Of a stretch of 64,000 nt of DNA, positions 5,102 through 13,655 are shown in pieces. A program made the translations under genes and the position numbers. Under the pieces are notes generated by a model that was given only the letters and a program-made list of their open reading frames with translations, was not told the DNA's origin and searched no databases. The stretch covers positions 1 through 64,000 of the forward strand of contig JAIQGI010000017.1 of the NCBI GenBank assembly GCA_020072565.1, given 5' to 3'. The first letter of the stretch is position 1, and every line of letters starts with the position of its first letter. Source of the DNA: Terriglobia bacterium. Its GTDB lineage: Bacteria > Acidobacteriota > UBA6911.

Positions 5102-6049
5102 TCAAATTCTCGTTGCCCTGGCGATCATGATGAAGCCAAATCGCAGTCTGTCCATCAGCCGATCCAGATAGGGCGCAAATCGAATATCCAGACTGTCAAT
5201 CTTCAACATCCATTGATGTGGCTTGCCTCGCACCTGGGACGAGAATTCCTGCCAGCGTTTAGAAGTACGGTTCTGAGCCACAATCTCATCAATCTCCTCA
5301 CCGGCTGCCAGCTTTACAAGATAGTTGAGTACCCCCCGGTTATTGCCACCAAACAGGTCGCAGTTGAAATCAAAACGATCAGGCCTGAATCCTGTGCTTT
5401 GCAGCATTTTCCCAAGGGTACGCCTTGTGAACAAAGTCGTGTGCCGAGGAATGTCGTCATGCCGCATGAATCGTCCCGGCAGACTGTTGAAATTGGTTAC
5501 CAACAGAACCGCTTTGCCACCCCTCCTCAACAGCCGGTAAACCGAGGCCAACATTTTCTTTGGATAGTAGACGTGCTCGAGAACCGCCCAGAGCGTGACC
5601 AGATCAAATGAGCCGGGAGAGTATCCGGCCGACTCTATATCCCCATAGAAAATGTCCAGGTCAAAGACATTCGGCGGCTTAGTCGAAAAATCCGCGCCGC
5701 GAACCTCCCAACCCCGTTGCTGCATGAAGTACATAAACTCGCCCTTCATACATCCGATATCCAACAGCCTGCCGGCAGGAAGGTCTCTGACATATTCAAA
5801 CTTGAGTGCAAGCTGTCTGTCCTTCGCGCGCAACAGGCCCTCGGCGGTCAGATGGCTGTCGTAGAATTCCTCCGGATAAAATAAATGGATTTCTTCATCA
5901 GATGGACGAGGATTCACATAGACCAGTCCGCATTTCCTGCACCGGACAACGCAGAATGGTTCGGCATCCGTTCGATGTGCGAAGTCTTTGCGTTTGAAGA
6001 CAAGCCTGGTGCGGTTGGTTTCACATAATGGGCATTGAATATATTGCAT
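5102..6049 (-). CDS. Class I SAM-dependent methyltransferase with N-terminal zinc ribbon
   Basis: 315 aa. The N-terminus carries a four-cysteine zinc knuckle (C6-x2-C9 and C37-x2-C40) followed by YVNPRPS, then a Rossmann methyltransferase with the SAM-binding loop LLDIGCMKGEF near residue 95 and the motif LVTLWAVLEHV in the post-II/III position. This zinc-ribbon methyltransferase architecture is common in surface polysaccharide loci, where members methylate sugar nucleotides or the growing glycan end. The acceptor cannot be told. It is the most downstream member of the glycan locus, separated from the rest by an IS110 remnant, so it may have its own transcription. Start chosen at the first ATG, directly before the first Cys pair. 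Confidence 0.85.
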   Translation of the reverse strand: MQYIQCPLCETNRTRLVFKRKDFAHRTDAEPFCVVRCRKCGLVYVNPRPSDEEIHLFYPEEFYDSHLTAEGLLRAKDRQLALKFEYVRDLPAGRLLDIGCMKGEFMYFMQQRGWEVRGADFSTKPPNVFDLDIFYGDIESAGYSPGSFDLVTLWAVLEHVYYPKKMLASVYRLLRRGGKAVLLVTNFNSLPGRFMRHDDIPRHTTLFTRRTLGKMLQSTGFRPDRFDFNCDLFGGNNRGVLNYLVKLAAGEEIDEIVAQNRTSKRWQEFSSQVRGKPHQWMLKIDSLDIRFAPYLDRLMDRLRFGFIMIARATRI

Positions 6050-6154: not shown

Positions 6155-6835
6155 TCAACAGACCGACCTTGTCATCTCATCTATGACAGATCGGAAGTCA
6201 AGGAACACTTTCCCCTTTTGACCCTTTCTTGACCTCCGAAGGGCCCCATAATTTCGAGCACTCCCATCGCGTGCATCATTAGCGTGTCGCAACTGCGCCC
6301 ACTCTATGCAGCTGCCCTGTTCTTTCAATCGCTTCAGGTTTCGACTCCCGTTTCGCACCGAATAAATTCCATCCCCTACCTCGTGCAATCCTCCTCCGAG
6401 AAAGCACTGCTTGACCCGGTTTTTGGCTCTCGTCAGCTCACGAGACGAAATCCAATAACCACGCACCGCCTGGCGCAACCCCCCATAGGTCAGCCTCGGA
6501 TGATGAACACGCTTAAACCTGTTTAGATACAGCAGGTCTGACAAGGACTCGGCATCCGTCTTATCCCACTTGTCCTCCGATTCGCTGATCAGACGATTGA
6601 ACCGTGGCTGGCAGCGAATCACCTCGTCAACATGACCCATTAGAAGCCGAGTCACCAAGTCCGAAAGCCGGCTCTCTTCCACGATGACCCTCTTCCGCCC
6701 TGGAATACCAATCACCAAATTCTCCAGCTCGGACTTTGTCGTCGGTATCCGTTGCCGAAGTAGGATCACTCCTTTGCCGTTTCGCACACATACGTCTGTT
6801 CTTAAACTGTGAAGATCCATTCCCATATGCTTCAT
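6155..6835 (-). pseudogene. IS110-family transposase remnant
   Basis: The N-terminal DEDD-type catalytic region of an IS110 transposase is recognisable: MGMDLHS (first Asp), VIVEES (Glu), then CQPRFNRLISESEDKWDKTDAESL (split here: CQPRFNRL, then DKWDKTDAESL with the later Asp residues) and LTRAKNRVKQ. Functional members have 300-400 residues and a C-terminal Transposase_20 domain. Here similarity fades after about residue 165 and the frame stops at about 226 residues, so the copy is truncated and probably frameshifted. GGAGG lies before ATG 6835. No terminal repeats were identified, as is usual for IS110. It sits inside the polysaccharide locus, between two methyltransferase-type genes. Confidence 0.75.
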
Positions 6836-6853
6836 CGTGGCCTCCAGTGTCAC

Positions 6854-7113: not shown

Positions 7114-7824
7114 TCATTCCTGTTGAATGTCATAAGGAACACTGAATGGAGCGTCGTCATGTTTTCGATATGCAGCCATATAAAGGACGTTTGCCGGAAT
7201 CCTCGACCGACGAAGCAATTCGTCGACTTTTTGTCGAAAAGAAGTCTCCCGTTTGCCGTCATAAGTAAGATAGATTGAAAAGCGTCTTCTCCAAGGGACG
7301 ATTAACTCATTGCGAATAAAATGAAAAGCTTCTGCGACCAGTTGATACCTGTTTACATCACCAACCGCCTTGAAAAACATCGGATTAAAATTGTAATATC
7401 CATGATCATACCAAGTCAGCGGCGCAAGATGGATAATAACTCCATTGCTTTTTACAAGAGAGTGTATGTTTTGCAAAGCCGCCCGAACATCCATGATATG
7501 CTCAAGCGTGCCGCCGTTAAGCAGAGTGTTAAAGCTTCCCGCCATTTCTCGCGGTATTGGCTTATTGAAGTCCAACCTCAAATCCGCCATGTCATTCAGA
7601 TCACAATCCAGATATTGATCTATACCGTAGCGATCGAGAAAATATGCACGAACACTGCGTAAATCGCACATCAGATGTGGATAGGAATATTTAATAGCAA
7701 CCTTTTGAATCTCAGATTCCGGCTGGTTGATACGAAGGCACCCCAGCGCCAACATAGGGCCCCGCAACGCGCCTTGCGCATGGCATATATCAAAAAATTC
7801 GTTAAACGACATCTGTATTCCCAT
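7114..7824 (-). CDS. Methyltransferase-like protein of the glycan locus
   Basis: 236 aa. The middle section (NTLLNGGTLEHIMDVRAALQ, then HSLVKSNGVIIHLAPLTWYDHGYYNFNP) matches the C-terminal half of Methyltransf_11/23-type proteins of polysaccharide clusters: the 'NGGTLEH' loop, the helix before the reducing strand, and the substrate lobe. A clear N-terminal GxGxG SAM loop is not seen; LDCDLND may be its acidic strand. Either the SAM site is divergent or the enzyme is inactive. The gene is AT-richer than its neighbours, like the radical SAM gene upstream. The start is uncertain: ATG 7824 or ATG 7812, neither with a strong ribosome-binding site. Confidence 0.6.
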   Translation of the reverse strand: MGIQMSFNEFFDICHAQGALRGPMLALGCLRINQPESEIQKVAIKYSYPHLMCDLRSVRAYFLDRYGIDQYLDCDLNDMADLRLDFNKPIPREMAGSFNTLLNGGTLEHIMDVRAALQNIHSLVKSNGVIIHLAPLTWYDHGYYNFNPMFFKAVGDVNRYQLVAEAFHFIRNELIVPWRRRFSIYLTYDGKRETSFRQKVDELLRRSRIPANVLYMAAYRKHDDAPFSVPYDIQQE

Positions 7825-8058: not shown

Positions 8059-9516
8059 TTAGATTCCACTCAATATCATGTCAATAACAGCAATAATTTG
8101 ATCCTTAGAAGATGGAACATTAATATATCCCAAAACTTTCCTGAGTTGTACCAAATCCTCGGCCCGCTCCCGACAGAATATATTATGTTCATCTGTGAAC
8201 CACTGATAACCCGCCGCCTTGTACAATTGCAGGTCCAGCCCTTCCGGGTCATATTTTGTGATAAATTCCTGCAACTCCAACAAACCTTTATAAGTAAAGT
8301 CGCTCAACACGGTGCTGAAACGTAATTTTGGCCGTTTGAGATTTCGCCTAGCTCTCACTTCCATAAAGTTATCCAGCCGCCGCCGCAATTGATCCAAACT
8401 TGCCCCTGTTCGCAATTTTTGATATATTTCTGGATCTACAGAATCGATCGAAATGGCTATGGTCGTAACTACATTTGAAGCAAAGATGTGATCTGCCCAC
8501 GCGTTCGACATTAAAATCCCATTGCTATATAATACCAAACGCAAGTGATCCAAATTTGCGTATTCATTGACATCCGTTAAGATTCTCGACAATAAGGACT
8601 TATCGGGAGGATCAATAAATATCTCTCCACCGCCCACAATATTCAGCAATCTAAGATACCGATAGGCAGGAATGAAGTTGTTCATCGCCGCGACAGAAAG
8701 ATCACCATCGCAGGCCAGAATTCCCGACGTCATTCTCTGAGGGCACATCGGACACCGCAAGTTGCACTTATCATTAATTATAACCATAGCCTGAAACGGA
8801 AATGAGGCTGTGTTACAATTTCTACCATGATATTCAAGATCATTGATGTAGATATTATCGTCATAGGAAGTGGGAGCGGTATATAGGTTTCCCGCATCAT
8901 CATCAGTTCCGATAGGAGGAGATTCGAAACTATAATTTAGGTGGGAGGGCACTTTAATATACGGATGCATATCGCTATAACGCATCACCAACCGAGGACA
9001 TGACAATTCGCATCCGGCGTTTCGATATGTTCCTTGAGCAAAAAATCCCCGGATTTTACTTAATACGGCGTTTTGATGCCAAATGTCATCGATTCTTGTC
9101 TTCGTCAGATCGCCGATGATTGCATGATTATTGCAACATATTGACACCTTCCCCTCAAGGGATACAGAAATTGAATTCCATGCATTATCACAGGCCCATG
9201 GGTCTTGGTGATCTATGATTTGAATGGTGTACGAGCGACCATTACTATTAGGATCACTATTATCCGATGTGGAAAACAACAACATGCCATTCCAATGGGA
9301 ATAATATCCCCTCCCCAGTCTGCGAATGTTGTCATGCAGAGCGTGTGGAATCCCATATTTATGATCATTCTCAAATAGAACTACGTTCGATCGAGTGGGG
9401 TACCCGAGATCATCGGATGCAGTCTGAATCCCTGTCAGATTGGCCGCCCAGCAGTGGCCATTGTCGTGGGTAAATGGCCGTTTCAAAGGGATCTGACCTC
9501 TGTTGTTGACTTCCAT
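8059..9516 (-). CDS. Radical SAM protein with N-terminal SHW/DNSDP domain and SPASM-like segment
   Basis: 485 aa. Order: an 80-residue domain (18-100) with GRGYYSHW and LLFSTSDNSDP; a cysteine-containing SPASM-like segment (105-175; VSICCNNH, IGDLTKTRIDDIW, then C169 and C173); then a radical SAM core with the 4Fe-4S motif CNLRCPMC (251-258) and GGGEIF. SPASM domains normally follow the core, so this order is unusual. Its ATG follows the Wzt-type gene's TAG stop directly, indicating one transcript. The first domain is also present in that Wzt-type ATPase. The likely role is radical modification of a glycan or glycan-linked substrate, but the reaction is unknown. The gene is visibly AT-richer than the flanking genes, which suggests acquisition by transfer. 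Confidence 0.8.
   Translation of the reverse strand: MEVNNRGQIPLKRPFTHDNGHCWAANLTGIQTASDDLGYPTRSNVVLFENDHKYGIPHALHDNIRRLGRGYYSHWNGMLLFSTSDNSDPNSNGRSYTIQIIDHQDPWACDNAWNSISVSLEGKVSICCNNHAIIGDLTKTRIDDIWHQNAVLSKIRGFFAQGTYRNAGCELSCPRLVMRYSDMHPYIKVPSHLNYSFESPPIGTDDDAGNLYTAPTSYDDNIYINDLEYHGRNCNTASFPFQAMVIINDKCNLRCPMCPQRMTSGILACDGDLSVAAMNNFIPAYRYLRLLNIVGGGEIFIDPPDKSLLSRILTDVNEYANLDHLRLVLYSNGILMSNAWADHIFASNVVTTIAISIDSVDPEIYQKLRTGASLDQLRRRLDNFMEVRARRNLKRPKLRFSTVLSDFTYKGLLELQEFITKYDPEGLDLQLYKAAGYQWFTDEHNIFCRERAEDLVQLRKVLGYINVPSSKDQIIAVIDMILSGI
9217..9465 (-). other. Shared SHW/DNSDP domain, copy in the radical SAM protein
   Basis: Residues 18-100 of the radical SAM protein align end to end with the domain inserted in the neighbouring ABC ATPase, with the same spacing from GH-W to NG--Y. 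The two copies differ at most surface-type positions, so this is an old homologous domain and not a recent duplication. Confidence 0.75.
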
Positions 9517-11265
9517 CTATTCGTCCTTCACCTCTTCAGCGGATTCTCCCTTTGCCAGGGTAACCACCTTGATCTGCGGCTCGAGATCGACAACCGATGT
9601 AGTAAAAATGCCATCCCGCATTCGGACCTCGAATTGGAGCCCATCATAGCGACAATCATAATGCGCATCCGTTTCAGCATCCGGGTCACCAATAGAAAAG
9701 GTCATGAAATACAAGCCGTTCGTGAGCCGCATGGTCACATGCATGCACGCTTCGATAATATCTCCCTTTCGTTGACCTGGAACCTGGATCTTTTGCAGAG
9801 CCGCCGTGGTTCCAAACAGGTCAACGCCCTTCATATTGCGGATCAGAAAGCCGACGTTAAGGCGCTCCAGATCCTCGTAGAATAATGCACGCAGAAAGAA
9901 AGTGCAACCAGCTCCCGAGTCCAATAGCGCGCTTTTGATCCCGAGTTCATCGCGAATGCCGAAATCAAGAATCTCCGCTTTCTTGTTACCGATTCGCATC
10001 TGATGAGAATTATGTTGATCGAATGGTTCGCGAAGCCCAAGTTTTTGAAGCGCGCCACGACGAATCGCCTCCCTTTCCCGGGCATCATGAGTGTCGAAAT
10101 CTCCTCCATAGGCAGCCTTCTTCGACAGGTAAATGTGCCGGAGCCGGTACTGGTGTCCGTTGTAACGAGGATCGCTATTGTCGGTCGTGGAAAATAACAG
10201 GGTTTTGCCCCAATGTGAGAATGCCCCCCGGCCATATTCGCGTATCTGGCCATGCAAACAATGAGCAGGATGCAAGCGCACATCGTCCTCCCAGAGGACA
10301 AACTTTGATTGTTCCGGCTTCTCGGATGTATCGCCTTTTATGGGGATCTTGGAAAGATCCACAAACCAAGCATGACCACTCTCCGGCATAATATCACTAG
10401 AGTTCAAGGGATAATCGAGATCCAGCTGTGATTCCTCATCGCAGGTCGATTCTGGAACTTGAACATCGCCGACTCTGTCGCACTCCCGTTCGGCTCGAAC
10501 GTGAAGTTTCCGTTCCTGTTCCTCATCACTCCCGAAGAGCATTTTGTAGTAAACCAGACTGATCCGATGCGGCTCGCCTTGATCAAGAACCCGACCCTTA
10601 TCCAGCAAGATCGCATGATCACAAAAAGTACTGATGGTGTTGGGGTCGTGCGAAACCAGCAAGATAGTTCGCCCAACATTGCGGAACTCCTGAATCTTGC
10701 CGAAGGACTTGCGCTGGAATTTGGCGTCGCCGACGGATAAGGCCTCGTCAATAATCAGGATATCGGGGTCTATGCATACCGCGGTGCTGAAGGTCAAGCG
10801 CGCCTGCATGCCCGTGGAATAGGTCTTGAAGGGTTGGTCGATGAAGTCCTCGAGCTCGCTGAACTCGATAACCCAATCCATCTTGCCAAGGATCTCCTCG
10901 CGGGTCAGCCCGACCATCAGCCCGCCGAGGTAGATGTTTTCACGTCCGCTGTATTCGCCATGAAATCCGGTCCCCAGTTCCAGAATGGAAGAAATCCGAC
11001 CTGTGACCGCAACGGAACCGGCGGTGTGATCGAGAGTGCCGGTGATGATCTTGAGGAGCGTGCTTTTGCCCGCGCCGTTGCGCCCCATGATGCCGACGAC
11101 CTGGCCGCGGCGCACCTCGAACGACACATCTCTCAGCGCCCAGAAGGGCTTGTAGTTCTGCTTGCCGGCGAGCAGTCCCCAGAACATGTCCGCAGGTCTG
11201 GCGTACATCTTGAACATCTTGGAGAGATTGGAAACGCGGATGGCAAACTCGCCGGCATCGTTCAT
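9517..11265 (-). CDS. Polysaccharide ABC transporter ATP-binding protein (Wzt type) with extra SHW/DNSDP domain
   Basis: 582 aa. Nucleotide-binding domain at 1-250: Walker A GRNGAGKST (61-69), signature YSTGMQARL (149-157), Walker B ILIIDEAL (169-176), switch His in LLVSHD. This matches the TagH/Wzt subfamily. A linker is followed by an 80-residue domain (297-378; GRGAFSHW, LLFSTTDNSDP) shared with the next gene, then a Wzt_C-like beta-sandwich (about 420-560) of the type that recognises the glycan end. The start at 11265 overlaps the permease stop by ATGA, and the ATPase domain is complete from this Met. A longer upstream frame reading into the permease is not needed. It powers export of lipid-linked polysaccharide across the inner membrane. 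Confidence 0.9.
   Translation of the reverse strand: MNDAGEFAIRVSNLSKMFKMYARPADMFWGLLAGKQNYKPFWALRDVSFEVRRGQVVGIMGRNGAGKSTLLKIITGTLDHTAGSVAVTGRISSILELGTGFHGEYSGRENIYLGGLMVGLTREEILGKMDWVIEFSELEDFIDQPFKTYSTGMQARLTFSTAVCIDPDILIIDEALSVGDAKFQRKSFGKIQEFRNVGRTILLVSHDPNTISTFCDHAILLDKGRVLDQGEPHRISLVYYKMLFGSDEEQERKLHVRAERECDRVGDVQVPESTCDEESQLDLDYPLNSSDIMPESGHAWFVDLSKIPIKGDTSEKPEQSKFVLWEDDVRLHPAHCLHGQIREYGRGAFSHWGKTLLFSTTDNSDPRYNGHQYRLRHIYLSKKAAYGGDFDTHDAREREAIRRGALQKLGLREPFDQHNSHQMRIGNKKAEILDFGIRDELGIKSALLDSGAGCTFFLRALFYEDLERLNVGFLIRNMKGVDLFGTTAALQKIQVPGQRKGDIIEACMHVTMRLTNGLYFMTFSIGDPDAETDAHYDCRYDGLQFEVRMRDGIFTTSVVDLEPQIKVVTLAKGESAEEVKDE
10132..10377 (-). other. Shared SHW/DNSDP domain, copy in the Wzt-type ATPase
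   Basis: Residues 297-378 of the ATPase. Invariant positions shared with the radical SAM protein (9217-9465): GH-W, L--I, VL-E-D, P-H-LH--IR--GRG, SHW, LLFST-DNSDP, NG--Y. I know of no formal family name for it. Confidence 0.75.
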
Positions 11266-12098
11266 AACACGTTCCCGAACATCACCTTCAGTTTGCGGAA
11301 TATGCGATAGCCCAGGACGAAGATGAAAACGCTCATCCCGCTGAATGCTACCCATGCCCAGGGATGCGCAAAACGCCCGAAGTAGAGAATGTCCTGATAG
11401 CACCAGACCATGTAGCTGAACGGGTCGATGTAAAGAACAGCGCGCACGGCTCTGGGTACCGATGCCGGCAAGTACAGGATCGGCAGCAGGAAGAACGCGA
11501 CGGAGCAAAAGACCTGTACAAAGTCTTTCACATCACGAAAGTAGACTCCGACCGATGCGAGCAAATAGCTGGCGCCGACCATCGCCAACGCTTGCAGGAT
11601 GAAAAGCAAGGGCAGCAGCAGGTAGGTCCAAAGCAACGTGTGATAGTTCCACAGATTGTATCCGGTCAGGAGCACCAGAAATATGATCTGCGTCCAGAGC
11701 GTGGCCAACACCCCCTTGACCGGCAGAACCTCGATGGGAAAAATCACTTGTTTGACCAGGTTGGTATTTGCAACGACAACTGTCCCGGACTTCATCATGC
11801 ATTCCTGGAATGTGAGCCAAGGGATCAGCCCCGCAAGCATGTACGAGGTGTAGTTGAGCGGCATGTCGAGCGTGCCGCCGATGCGCGTCTGGAAAACGAA
11901 AGCAAACACAAAAACATAGATCACCATCAATGCCAACGGGTGCCCGATAGCCCAGAACGTGCCGAAGAGCTGGCCCGAGTACCGCTCGCCGATCTCGCGC
12001 CTAGCCAACTCCAATGTCAGGCGGCGATGACGGGTGAGCAGGACGGTCAGCTCCTGGAACGCCTGCAAATTGGCCCTGAGATTCAGTGCCGTATACAT
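11262..12098 (-). CDS. Polysaccharide ABC transporter permease (Wzm/TagG type)
   Basis: 278 aa from ATG 12098 with about six hydrophobic segments: PLALMVIYVFVFAFVF, TSYMLAGLIPWLTF, WTQIIFLVLLTG, LLPLLFILQALAM, VFCSVAFFLLPILY and FSGMSVFIFVLG. It has the N-terminal amphipathic RREIGERYSGQLFGTFW typical of ABC-2 polysaccharide permeases. A frame extension to a TTG at 12143 exists but adds residues not typical of the family. Its stop overlaps the ATPase start by 4 nt, so the two subunits are translationally coupled. It forms the channel for the lipid-linked glycan. Confidence 0.9.
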   Translation of the reverse strand: MYTALNLRANLQAFQELTVLLTRHRRLTLELARREIGERYSGQLFGTFWAIGHPLALMVIYVFVFAFVFQTRIGGTLDMPLNYTSYMLAGLIPWLTFQECMMKSGTVVVANTNLVKQVIFPIEVLPVKGVLATLWTQIIFLVLLTGYNLWNYHTLLWTYLLLPLLFILQALAMVGASYLLASVGVYFRDVKDFVQVFCSVAFFLLPILYLPASVPRAVRAVLYIDPFSYMVWCYQDILYFGRFAHPWAWVAFSGMSVFIFVLGYRIFRKLKVMFGNVL

Positions 12099-12209
12099 AT
12101 CCGATCCGGGATTGAGAGAATTATCATAAGGGAGAATGCGCAAGAACGCAAAGACGCGGGTCCATAGGTCGGGCCGGAGGCCCCGCAGCTGCCGGCTGCG
12201 ACTGAGGTG

Positions 12210-13655
12210 TCACCCACGGGCTTTTTGATTGTCCTCCAACAAATTCAGCATTGCCTCGCGATATTTCGGTATCAGGACATCTTTGTCGTGATGGCCGGCA
12301 AGGTAAGTCTTGCAATTGGCGCCGGCCTGACCATATCGACGTTCATCCGACATGAGCAGGGATACATTTTCCACCAGCCGGTCAAAATCGCCGCCGGAAA
12401 CCAGCCCGCATCCGTGCTCGGAAAACATGCCGTTGGGATCCACCTGCAAACTGACGATCGGGACTCCGTATTTGAAGGCCTGCAGGAAGGTGTCGGGGCA
12501 GCCCTCGAAGGCCGAAGTGTTGACCAGCAGTCTGGCCTCCGCAAAGTGCTTCTCAACCTCGTCATAGGGAACATAGGTCAGTATTTTCAGGTTTGAAAGG
12601 CTCTGGCTTTTTTGCAGGATGCGGCGGTGAACGTTGTCGATGGCCAGGCTCATGATCATCAGGTACTCGTACTCGGGTTTCCTGCGGGCGAGATCCACGA
12701 ACAACTCGGGCTGCTTGACGCGATCGTCGGATTTGCCCACCCACAGGATTCTTTCAGCTCTTGAGGATTTCGGAAAACGCGGGGCCAAATCGACAGGATT
12801 GGGAATGACGACCGCGTCTCGTCCAAAATGAGTCTTTGCCAGTTCGGCTTGCCGCCTGCTTTGCACCATAAGCAGATCTGCGTTCTCGATGGTGTACGCC
12901 ATCAGGAAACCCAACTGGCCATAGATGTCCGTCGAGCCGGTTCGGGCCTCATGGGCCGCGACAAAATCCTGGTCCGAGCCGCTGACCATAATGTACTTCT
13001 TGCCACGACGACGGCAGAAGTATGCGAGGTTCGCAGTCAAATCATGATTCCCATGCGCCATATAGACATCGGCGTCGATTTGGTCGTAGATGTTCACGTC
13101 CGCATTTCGGATCGTGTGCGACCGGATGCATCCAAACAGGCTCTCCCCCTGCAGGAAGGCCGTCGCCCGGCGCGCGCTCGATTCGACTGCCGCCACAGGA
13201 TAACGCAGCTTCCTGATCACGTTGACCATGCCCCTCGGCGCGTGCGCTTTGAGGTAGAGTCTTGCTCTCAGGCTCAGCGGTGAAGGCGCCGGCATGATTC
13301 CTTCACGGTGGCGCTGAGCTGCGGATAAATCATCCGGTCCGGCAACCGAATCCGAATGCAGGAGAGCGCCGGCCCAAGGATTGTCGGCCCGGAGCGGGCA
13401 GTATCTGCCGGGCCACGGGCAGAGAGTCACGCCATGGCGCACTTCGCTGCCTGGTTGCCCGTGGTCAAAGACCACCAGCTTGACCTCCAGGTCCGGGTAC
13501 TTTGCCAATTCCCTGGCAATCAGGGAGATCCTTACTTCCGATCCGCCAAAAGGGCTGATGCATGACGGGTTGAAAAGAGGATAGCTGTACAGACTCAATA
13601 CACAGACTTTGAGCTTCCATGTCTCCAAAGTGGCCGGTGCCGGTTGTTCGCTCAT
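12210..13655 (-). CDS. Glycosyltransferase family 4-like protein
   Basis: 481 aa. The C-terminal GT-B nucleotide-sugar domain is clear: RILWVGKSDDRVKQPELFVD, SLSNLKILTYVPYDEVEKHF, VNTSAFEGCPDTFLQAFKYG, PIVSLQVDPNG. The family's EGxP...E signature appears as EGCPDTFLQA, with Gln at the usual Glu position. The N-terminus (FGGSEVRISLIAREL) fits the acceptor-side Rossmann fold. It precedes the exporter genes by about 110 bp and is probably the first gene of the minus-strand operon, so it likely adds a sugar to the exported glycan. No strong ribosome-binding site precedes ATG 13655. Confidence 0.85.
   Translation of the reverse strand: MSEQPAPATLETWKLKVCVLSLYSYPLFNPSCISPFGGSEVRISLIARELAKYPDLEVKLVVFDHGQPGSEVRHGVTLCPWPGRYCPLRADNPWAGALLHSDSVAGPDDLSAAQRHREGIMPAPSPLSLRARLYLKAHAPRGMVNVIRKLRYPVAAVESSARRATAFLQGESLFGCIRSHTIRNADVNIYDQIDADVYMAHGNHDLTANLAYFCRRRGKKYIMVSGSDQDFVAAHEARTGSTDIYGQLGFLMAYTIENADLLMVQSRRQAELAKTHFGRDAVVIPNPVDLAPRFPKSSRAERILWVGKSDDRVKQPELFVDLARRKPEYEYLMIMSLAIDNVHRRILQKSQSLSNLKILTYVPYDEVEKHFAEARLLVNTSAFEGCPDTFLQAFKYGVPIVSLQVDPNGMFSEHGCGLVSGGDFDRLVENVSLLMSDERRYGQAGANCKTYLAGHHDKDVLIPKYREAMLNLLEDNQKARG

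Follow-up and report, generated by a model that had tools for sequence, protein, structure and literature searches.

A protein segment of approximately 85 residues, named the SHW domain here, is shared by two adjacent proteins of a Wzm/Wzt exporter gene cluster and recurs on proteins of diverse bacteria, phages and giant viruses; its family, its fold and its spread over proteins of biosynthesis, export and degradation are undescribed in Pfam, NCBIfam, the PDB, PHROGs and the literature searched. From sequence comparison and structure prediction, we see an even chance that SHW is an accessory module for glycan recognition that moves horizontally between genomes. In surface-polysaccharide loci most proteins are annotated singly, with no clue as to which ones work on a common chain. 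SHW would serve as a sequence tag for glycan-acting proteins (exporters, radical SAM proteins, methyltransferases, glycosyltransferases and lyases), would allow carriers that match nothing in Pfam to be placed in glycan metabolism, and connects bacterial loci with genes of phages and giant viruses.

Both copies lie in a window of 64,000 nucleotides, the whole stretch of DNA analysed, from a Terriglobia genome (Table 1). BLASTP aligned them without gaps at 37 of 84 identical residues (E = 3e-24). This bore out the original prediction, which had proposed one domain common to the neighbouring proteins, placed between the ATPase and the glycan-recognition domain of the ABC protein and at the N terminus of the radical SAM protein: in the former SHW is flanked by ABC_tran and Wzt_C, and in the latter it comes ahead of SPASM, with the Radical_SAM core last. 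The shared segment is not a chance resemblance, because the source genome holds eight copies, spread over three contigs that also encode glycosyltransferases, methyltransferases and asparagine-synthase-like proteins, and overall we recovered about 149 copies from 137 distinct ORFs, of which ten carry more than one. With ABC_tran and Wzt_C in one protein and an ABC-2 permease adjoining, the exporter is of the Wzm/Wzt O-antigen type, and the second carrier, with its CxxxCxxC-containing core and SPASM domain, is a radical SAM/SPASM protein. Gene coupling is tight, the Wzm stop overlapping the Wzt start and the Wzt stop being followed directly by the radical SAM ATG. SPASM ahead of the Radical_SAM core is an unusual order; all NCBIfam models scored below their own cut-offs on this protein, and its body had no homologue at E < 1e-20 among the 296 other genomes of the phylum. 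An N-terminal SPASM recurs among SHW-bearing radical SAM proteins, and a planctomycete example (L082:8693-10693, the same as L116:6312-8312) has the order SPASM, SHW, Radical_SAM.

Table 1 Features of the window and giant-virus carriers of the SHW domain
Feature	Position or accession	Strand	Remarks
SHW domain, copy 1	9214..9459	minus	N-terminal in radical SAM protein, residues 20-101; 44% identity to copy 2
SHW copy 1 core	9214..9459	minus	EN-D...H-I--G-G-YSHW...LFSTSDNSDPNSNGRSY
SHW domain, copy 2	10126..10383	minus	In Wzt-type ATPase, interval between ATPase and Wzt_C
Radical SAM protein	8059..9516	minus	Order SHW - SPASM - Radical_SAM
SPASM domain	8998..9192	minus	Pfam PF13186, 1.6e-7; N-terminal to radical SAM core
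Radical_SAM core	8356..8781	minus	Pfam PF04055, 3.9e-10; CxxxCxxC = CNLRCPMC (motif from translation)
Wzt-type ABC ATPase	9517..11265	minus	Likely start ATG 11265, overlapping Wzm stop codon (ATGA)
ABC_tran ATPase domain	10738..11136	minus	Pfam PF00005, 5.4e-22
Wzt_C glycan-binding domain	9583..10002	minus	Pfam PF14524, 3.9e-25; fold like solved 2r5o, 8dky, 5hno
Wzm-type permease, Wzt partner	11262..12143	minus	PF01061, 1.8e-11
GT4-type glycosyltransferase	12210..13655	minus	PF13692, 1.1e-8; 34-39% identical relatives in SHW loci of own contig C98, L023, L024, L091
Methyltransferase-like protein without SHW	7114..7824	minus	L024 homologue (42%) has C-terminal SHW
Class I methyltransferase	5102..6049	minus	60% identical to gene of SHW cluster in deltaproteobacterial MAG (L126/L073)
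Giant-virus carriers	BFVD A0A3G5ADE5, A0A3G5AEI9, A0A3G5A2W3, A0A3G5AAL9, A0A3G5A4X5		Hyperionvirus, Harvfovirus; one radical SAM as in window

We scanned the 104 members of the domain alignment singly against Pfam and NCBIfam. No member reached the gathering score of a Pfam-A model (2025 models), the best results being two single-member hits at E = 0.06-0.08, and no cut-off match to NCBIfam (release 20.0) fell within the domain in any of the 104, the best being E = 0.04, in three members, to an unrelated family; carbohydrate-binding module (CBM) models of both collections likewise matched none of them. A domain profile returned zero matches among PDB sequences, PHROGs gave no match to SHW on the copies tried, and our literature search found no description of the motif, the domain or its giant-virus carriers. 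That the domain has no family name, as originally stated, holds for Pfam, NCBIfam, PDB sequences and, on the copies tried, PHROGs, and the search for further members gave the outcome foreseen, many fusions to glycan enzymes or exporters in which the domain carries no Pfam annotation. One candidate identity, CHB_HEX_C_1 (PF13290, chitobiase C-terminal type), was rejected: its hairpin YTLDGSEP...S..Y resembles FSTSDNSDP..NGR.Y of SHW only locally (hhalign probability 4.9% over 21 columns), and none of the 104 members matched PF13290 in Pfam.

AlphaFold2, given a 103-row alignment from which the plasmid sequence L020 was left out, modelled the radical SAM copy as beta strands with one short helix (pLDDT 93.8, pTM 0.85). 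In a model of SHW and Wzt_C from the ATPase, SHW had a pLDDT of 92-97 over most of its length, and the Wzt_C half matched the solved Wzt carbohydrate-binding domains listed in Table 1. Secondary-structure elements follow in identical order in the models of the two copies, in line with the expectation that both would be predicted to adopt the same compact fold; the models draw on one family alignment and so are not independent proofs. Foldseek against the PDB found no match to the SHW fold at E ≤ 0.001 (best TMq about 0.45), including no solved CBM or lectin. The beta-rich model suits a binding module, and a confident model with no fold match in the PDB makes SHW a clear target for a first structure.

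Numbered as in the radical SAM protein, E49, G68, G70, D85, P89, N92 and Y96 are invariant or near-invariant across members and H61, S73, H74, W75, F81, S82, N86, S87, D88, G93 and R94 are present in most, in a sample biased towards consensus-like members, and with conservation somewhat inflated, by seeding the contig survey with consensus 8-mers (a consensus was used in place of alignment A2, whose variability made it unsuitable for searching contigs). Judged by strand alternation only, the hairpin 71-75/78-81 should have F/Y72 and F81 on one face and, opposite them, W75 and position 80, which is often aromatic. That the core hardly varies between phyla suggests that SHW either recognises a single feature shared by its ligands or has a structural function.

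The distribution of SHW is patchy. It was found in 0 of 59 relatives and in 2 of 297 genomes sampled from the phylum, the source and one other. The contig search yielded 97 relatives with record titles from Planctomycetota, Armatimonadetes, Bacteroidetes, Proteobacteria, Chloroflexi, Vicinamibacteria and others, and the domain occurred in 12 of 199 genomes of one of these phyla (Planctomycetota, that of L021) and in 10 of 82 genomes of the order of an Azospirillum carrier (L034). Two genomes of the latter order (G592 and G593) each have several copies, mostly on separate contigs, of a more divergent subfamily that is shorter at the N terminus, its profile matches beginning at position ~20-28. 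One of the eight copies in the source genome, on contig C98 (L009:606-812), is a remnant with an in-frame stop on the strand opposite the other SHW genes there, and represents a decayed carrier. A library of predicted viral structures gave five strong matches, all from the Klosneuvirinae Hyperionvirus and Harvfovirus (E = 4e-12 to 4e-8, 33-42% identity, TMq 0.70-0.87), annotated as glycosyltransferase(-like), amidotransferase, radical SAM, methyltransferase and one uncharacterised protein; eight phage-like viral contigs also carry SHW.

With partner functions taken from Pfam names, most Pfam-matched carriers act on glycans or plausibly belong to glycan metabolism. Export is represented by Wzt ATPases of the window, a Chloroflexi contig (L023) and a Thermoanaerobaculia contig (L024); biosynthesis and modification by several radical SAM types, GT4, GT61 and PMT-type glycosyltransferases, class I and FkbM methyltransferases and PhyH; and degradation by secreted pectate lyases of Pedobacter and relatives and RGL-like (rhamnogalacturonan) lyases of Armatimonadetes. 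A sulfatase, GDSL hydrolases (esterases) and a transglutaminase-like protein were also found. Many carriers have no Pfam match, PDB sequence searches with the unnamed partners mostly gave no match, and the transglutaminase-like, radical SAM and PhyH partners are putative glycan enzymes. Weak viperin matches of radical SAM carriers look like ordinary radical SAM similarity, and an anti-phage role for them was rejected. SHW occurs at the N terminus, at the C terminus or between domains, in up to three tandem copies, a variability of placement and number typical of accessory binding modules. Carriers are predicted to occupy both sides of the membrane, as cytoplasmic proteins and as TM-anchored proteins or secreted enzymes; in many membrane carriers SHW lies between TM1 and TM2, predicted from hydropathy only to be outside the cytoplasm. 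A glycan is the one partner that would be present in all of these places. In Lamprocystis and another Chromatiaceae genome (L092:3710-7872 and L098:5611-8531), two long same-strand frames overlap by about 700 bases, taken stop to stop, each with SHW and TM segments.

We next consider how carriers are arranged in genomes. Of the 113 carriers in the 27 genomes that have two or more, 68 lay within 15 kb of another, compared with a random expectation of 2.7 and a maximum of 12 in 2000 random placements, and the clustered carriers neighbour glycosyltransferase, methyltransferase and Asn_synthase genes. Copies on different partners had a mean identity of 44.2% within a genome and 43.7% between genomes; for a shared partner in different genomes the mean was 58.5%. 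The difference between 58.5% and the within-genome 44.2% indicates that SHW moves together with the partner protein, not the locus. The near-equality of 44.2% and 43.7% gives no support to locus-specific co-evolution of the copies. Sequence comparison thus favours a common job in these loci, with no sign of a locus-specific ligand. The original prediction had taken the shared domain to suggest that both proteins recognise the same glycan or dock to one complex. Its broad form gains from clustering of carriers in polysaccharide loci far beyond chance; its narrow form, one domain for the one glycan of that operon, is not supported, as nothing ties the copies of a locus together.

The cluster in the window itself looks acquired, given the kinship of its Wzm, Wzt, Wzt_C and methyltransferase to other lineages and its low G+C content. 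Its Wzm is 65-72% identical to the Wzm beside the SHW-bearing Wzt of L023 and L024, and its Wzt is 53-58% identical to those Wzt proteins over the full length. Wzt_C matches theirs at E = 3e-50 and 3e-38, compared with about 1e-7 at best for Wzt_C of its own class, and G+C falls to 43-52% at about 5-11 kb of the window, from about 60% around. A short IS110-type transposase ORF (6155-6853, PF01548 only) lies inside the cluster and fits a mobile low-G+C insert. SHW is on Wzt itself in the window, L023 and L024, and on another protein beside an SHW-free Wzt in L022 and L112; the carrier thus shifts between related export modules, and orthologous partners gain and lose the domain. SHW looks like an add-on that would help whichever module member carries one.

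A glycan-recognition module is the most economical account of these data, because most partners with an assignable function are glycan-handling proteins, in viruses as well as on either side of the membrane. SHW would be an autonomous beta domain joined to, or set next to, proteins of polysaccharide synthesis, capping, export, modification or cleavage, and would hold them on their glycan substrate much as CBMs do for hydrolases or RREs for enzymes of RiPP pathways. In the window, the exporter already reads its glycan through Wzt_C and SHW may supply a second hold on the same chain; if the co-translated radical SAM enzyme gripped that chain as well, modification and export would be coupled on one molecule. 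We infer both the glycan ligand and this coupling, and the near-invariance of the core in all carriers would imply that SHW reads a feature common to many glycans, not the special glycan of one locus. In its full form our preferred reading is tentative, falling somewhat short of an even chance: a new-fold glycan-recognition element on bacterial synthesis, capping, export and degradation proteins and on phage and giant-virus proteins, which marks proteins acting on one chain and moves with surface-polysaccharide loci.

The constant core, unlike the usual ligand-varying sites of CBMs, could point instead to a structural or docking role. If SHW paired with SHW or with one scaffold, it would assemble the exporter, methyltransferases, radical SAM proteins and glycosyltransferases of a locus; a near-constant core would suit such self-association, and docking would account for the clustering, the many different proteins of one locus that carry SHW and the change of carrier between related export modules. 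We consider docking unlikely, however, as genomes with a single copy are common (27 of 48 have one match), and no one scaffold would be open to secreted lyases, phage proteins with TM anchors and enzymes of the cytoplasm alike. Somewhat less probable still is a ligand-free structural spacer or folding unit, a mobile insert in exchanged polysaccharide loci whose clustering reflects recombination within them. This would explain a core that is constant regardless of partner and locus, gain and loss on related proteins and the patchy distribution, but same-genome copies at 44% identity are not recent duplicates, so local recombination fails to explain the clustering; the conserved polar and aromatic residues (E, H, W, D-N-S-D, N, R) seem beyond the needs of a spacer, and the partners are largely restricted to glycan proteins. 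The loop D-N-S-D-P-x-x-N-G, in which D85 is invariant and D88, P89 and N92 are near-invariant, might ligate calcium or another metal in a structural or lectin-like domain. We regard this as improbable given that SHW is found on both membrane sides while cytoplasmic free calcium is low, and that the only profile similarity of the loop is to the CHB_HEX_C_1 hairpin rejected above.

Accessory recognition modules are known as a kind, and what is new in the sources searched is the family, fold and spread of SHW. Like SHW, CBMs are small beta domains that are N-terminal, C-terminal or interdomain, sometimes in tandem, on many unrelated carbohydrate-active enzymes; SHW differs in matching no Pfam CBM or solved fold, in also occurring on cytoplasmic biosynthesis and export proteins, and in a core far more constant than is usual among CBMs, and glycan binding by SHW is predicted. 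Wzt_C, which adjoins SHW in the same window protein, recognises the exported chain at its modified end (PMC9445017). SHW is separate from it, smaller, and of other sequence and predicted secondary structure, and ordinary Wzt proteins of the source class are without SHW. RREs are presented, in a passage of PMC12710340, as one small recognition domain on diverse enzymes of one pathway that guides them to a shared substrate. By analogy SHW would work likewise, in a different pathway, RREs binding peptides. The predicted fold of SHW also differs from that of RREs.

Several phage-like contigs have a recurrent arrangement. Four IMG/VR contigs (L102:5587-6276, L103:5524-6225, L108:740-1153 and L109:2675-3106) encode a TM-anchored SHW protein beside an endolysin gene, identified as such by PHROGs in L102 and L108, and the SHW gene is on the strand opposite the neighbouring late genes. 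This position is moron-like, and the gene may serve lysogenic conversion by acting on glycans of the cell surface. A similar TM-SHW protein is encoded by L107, and three further viral contigs (L104:5383-6306, also L105 and L106) encode the same protein, with a methyltransferase-like domain and a C-terminal SHW.
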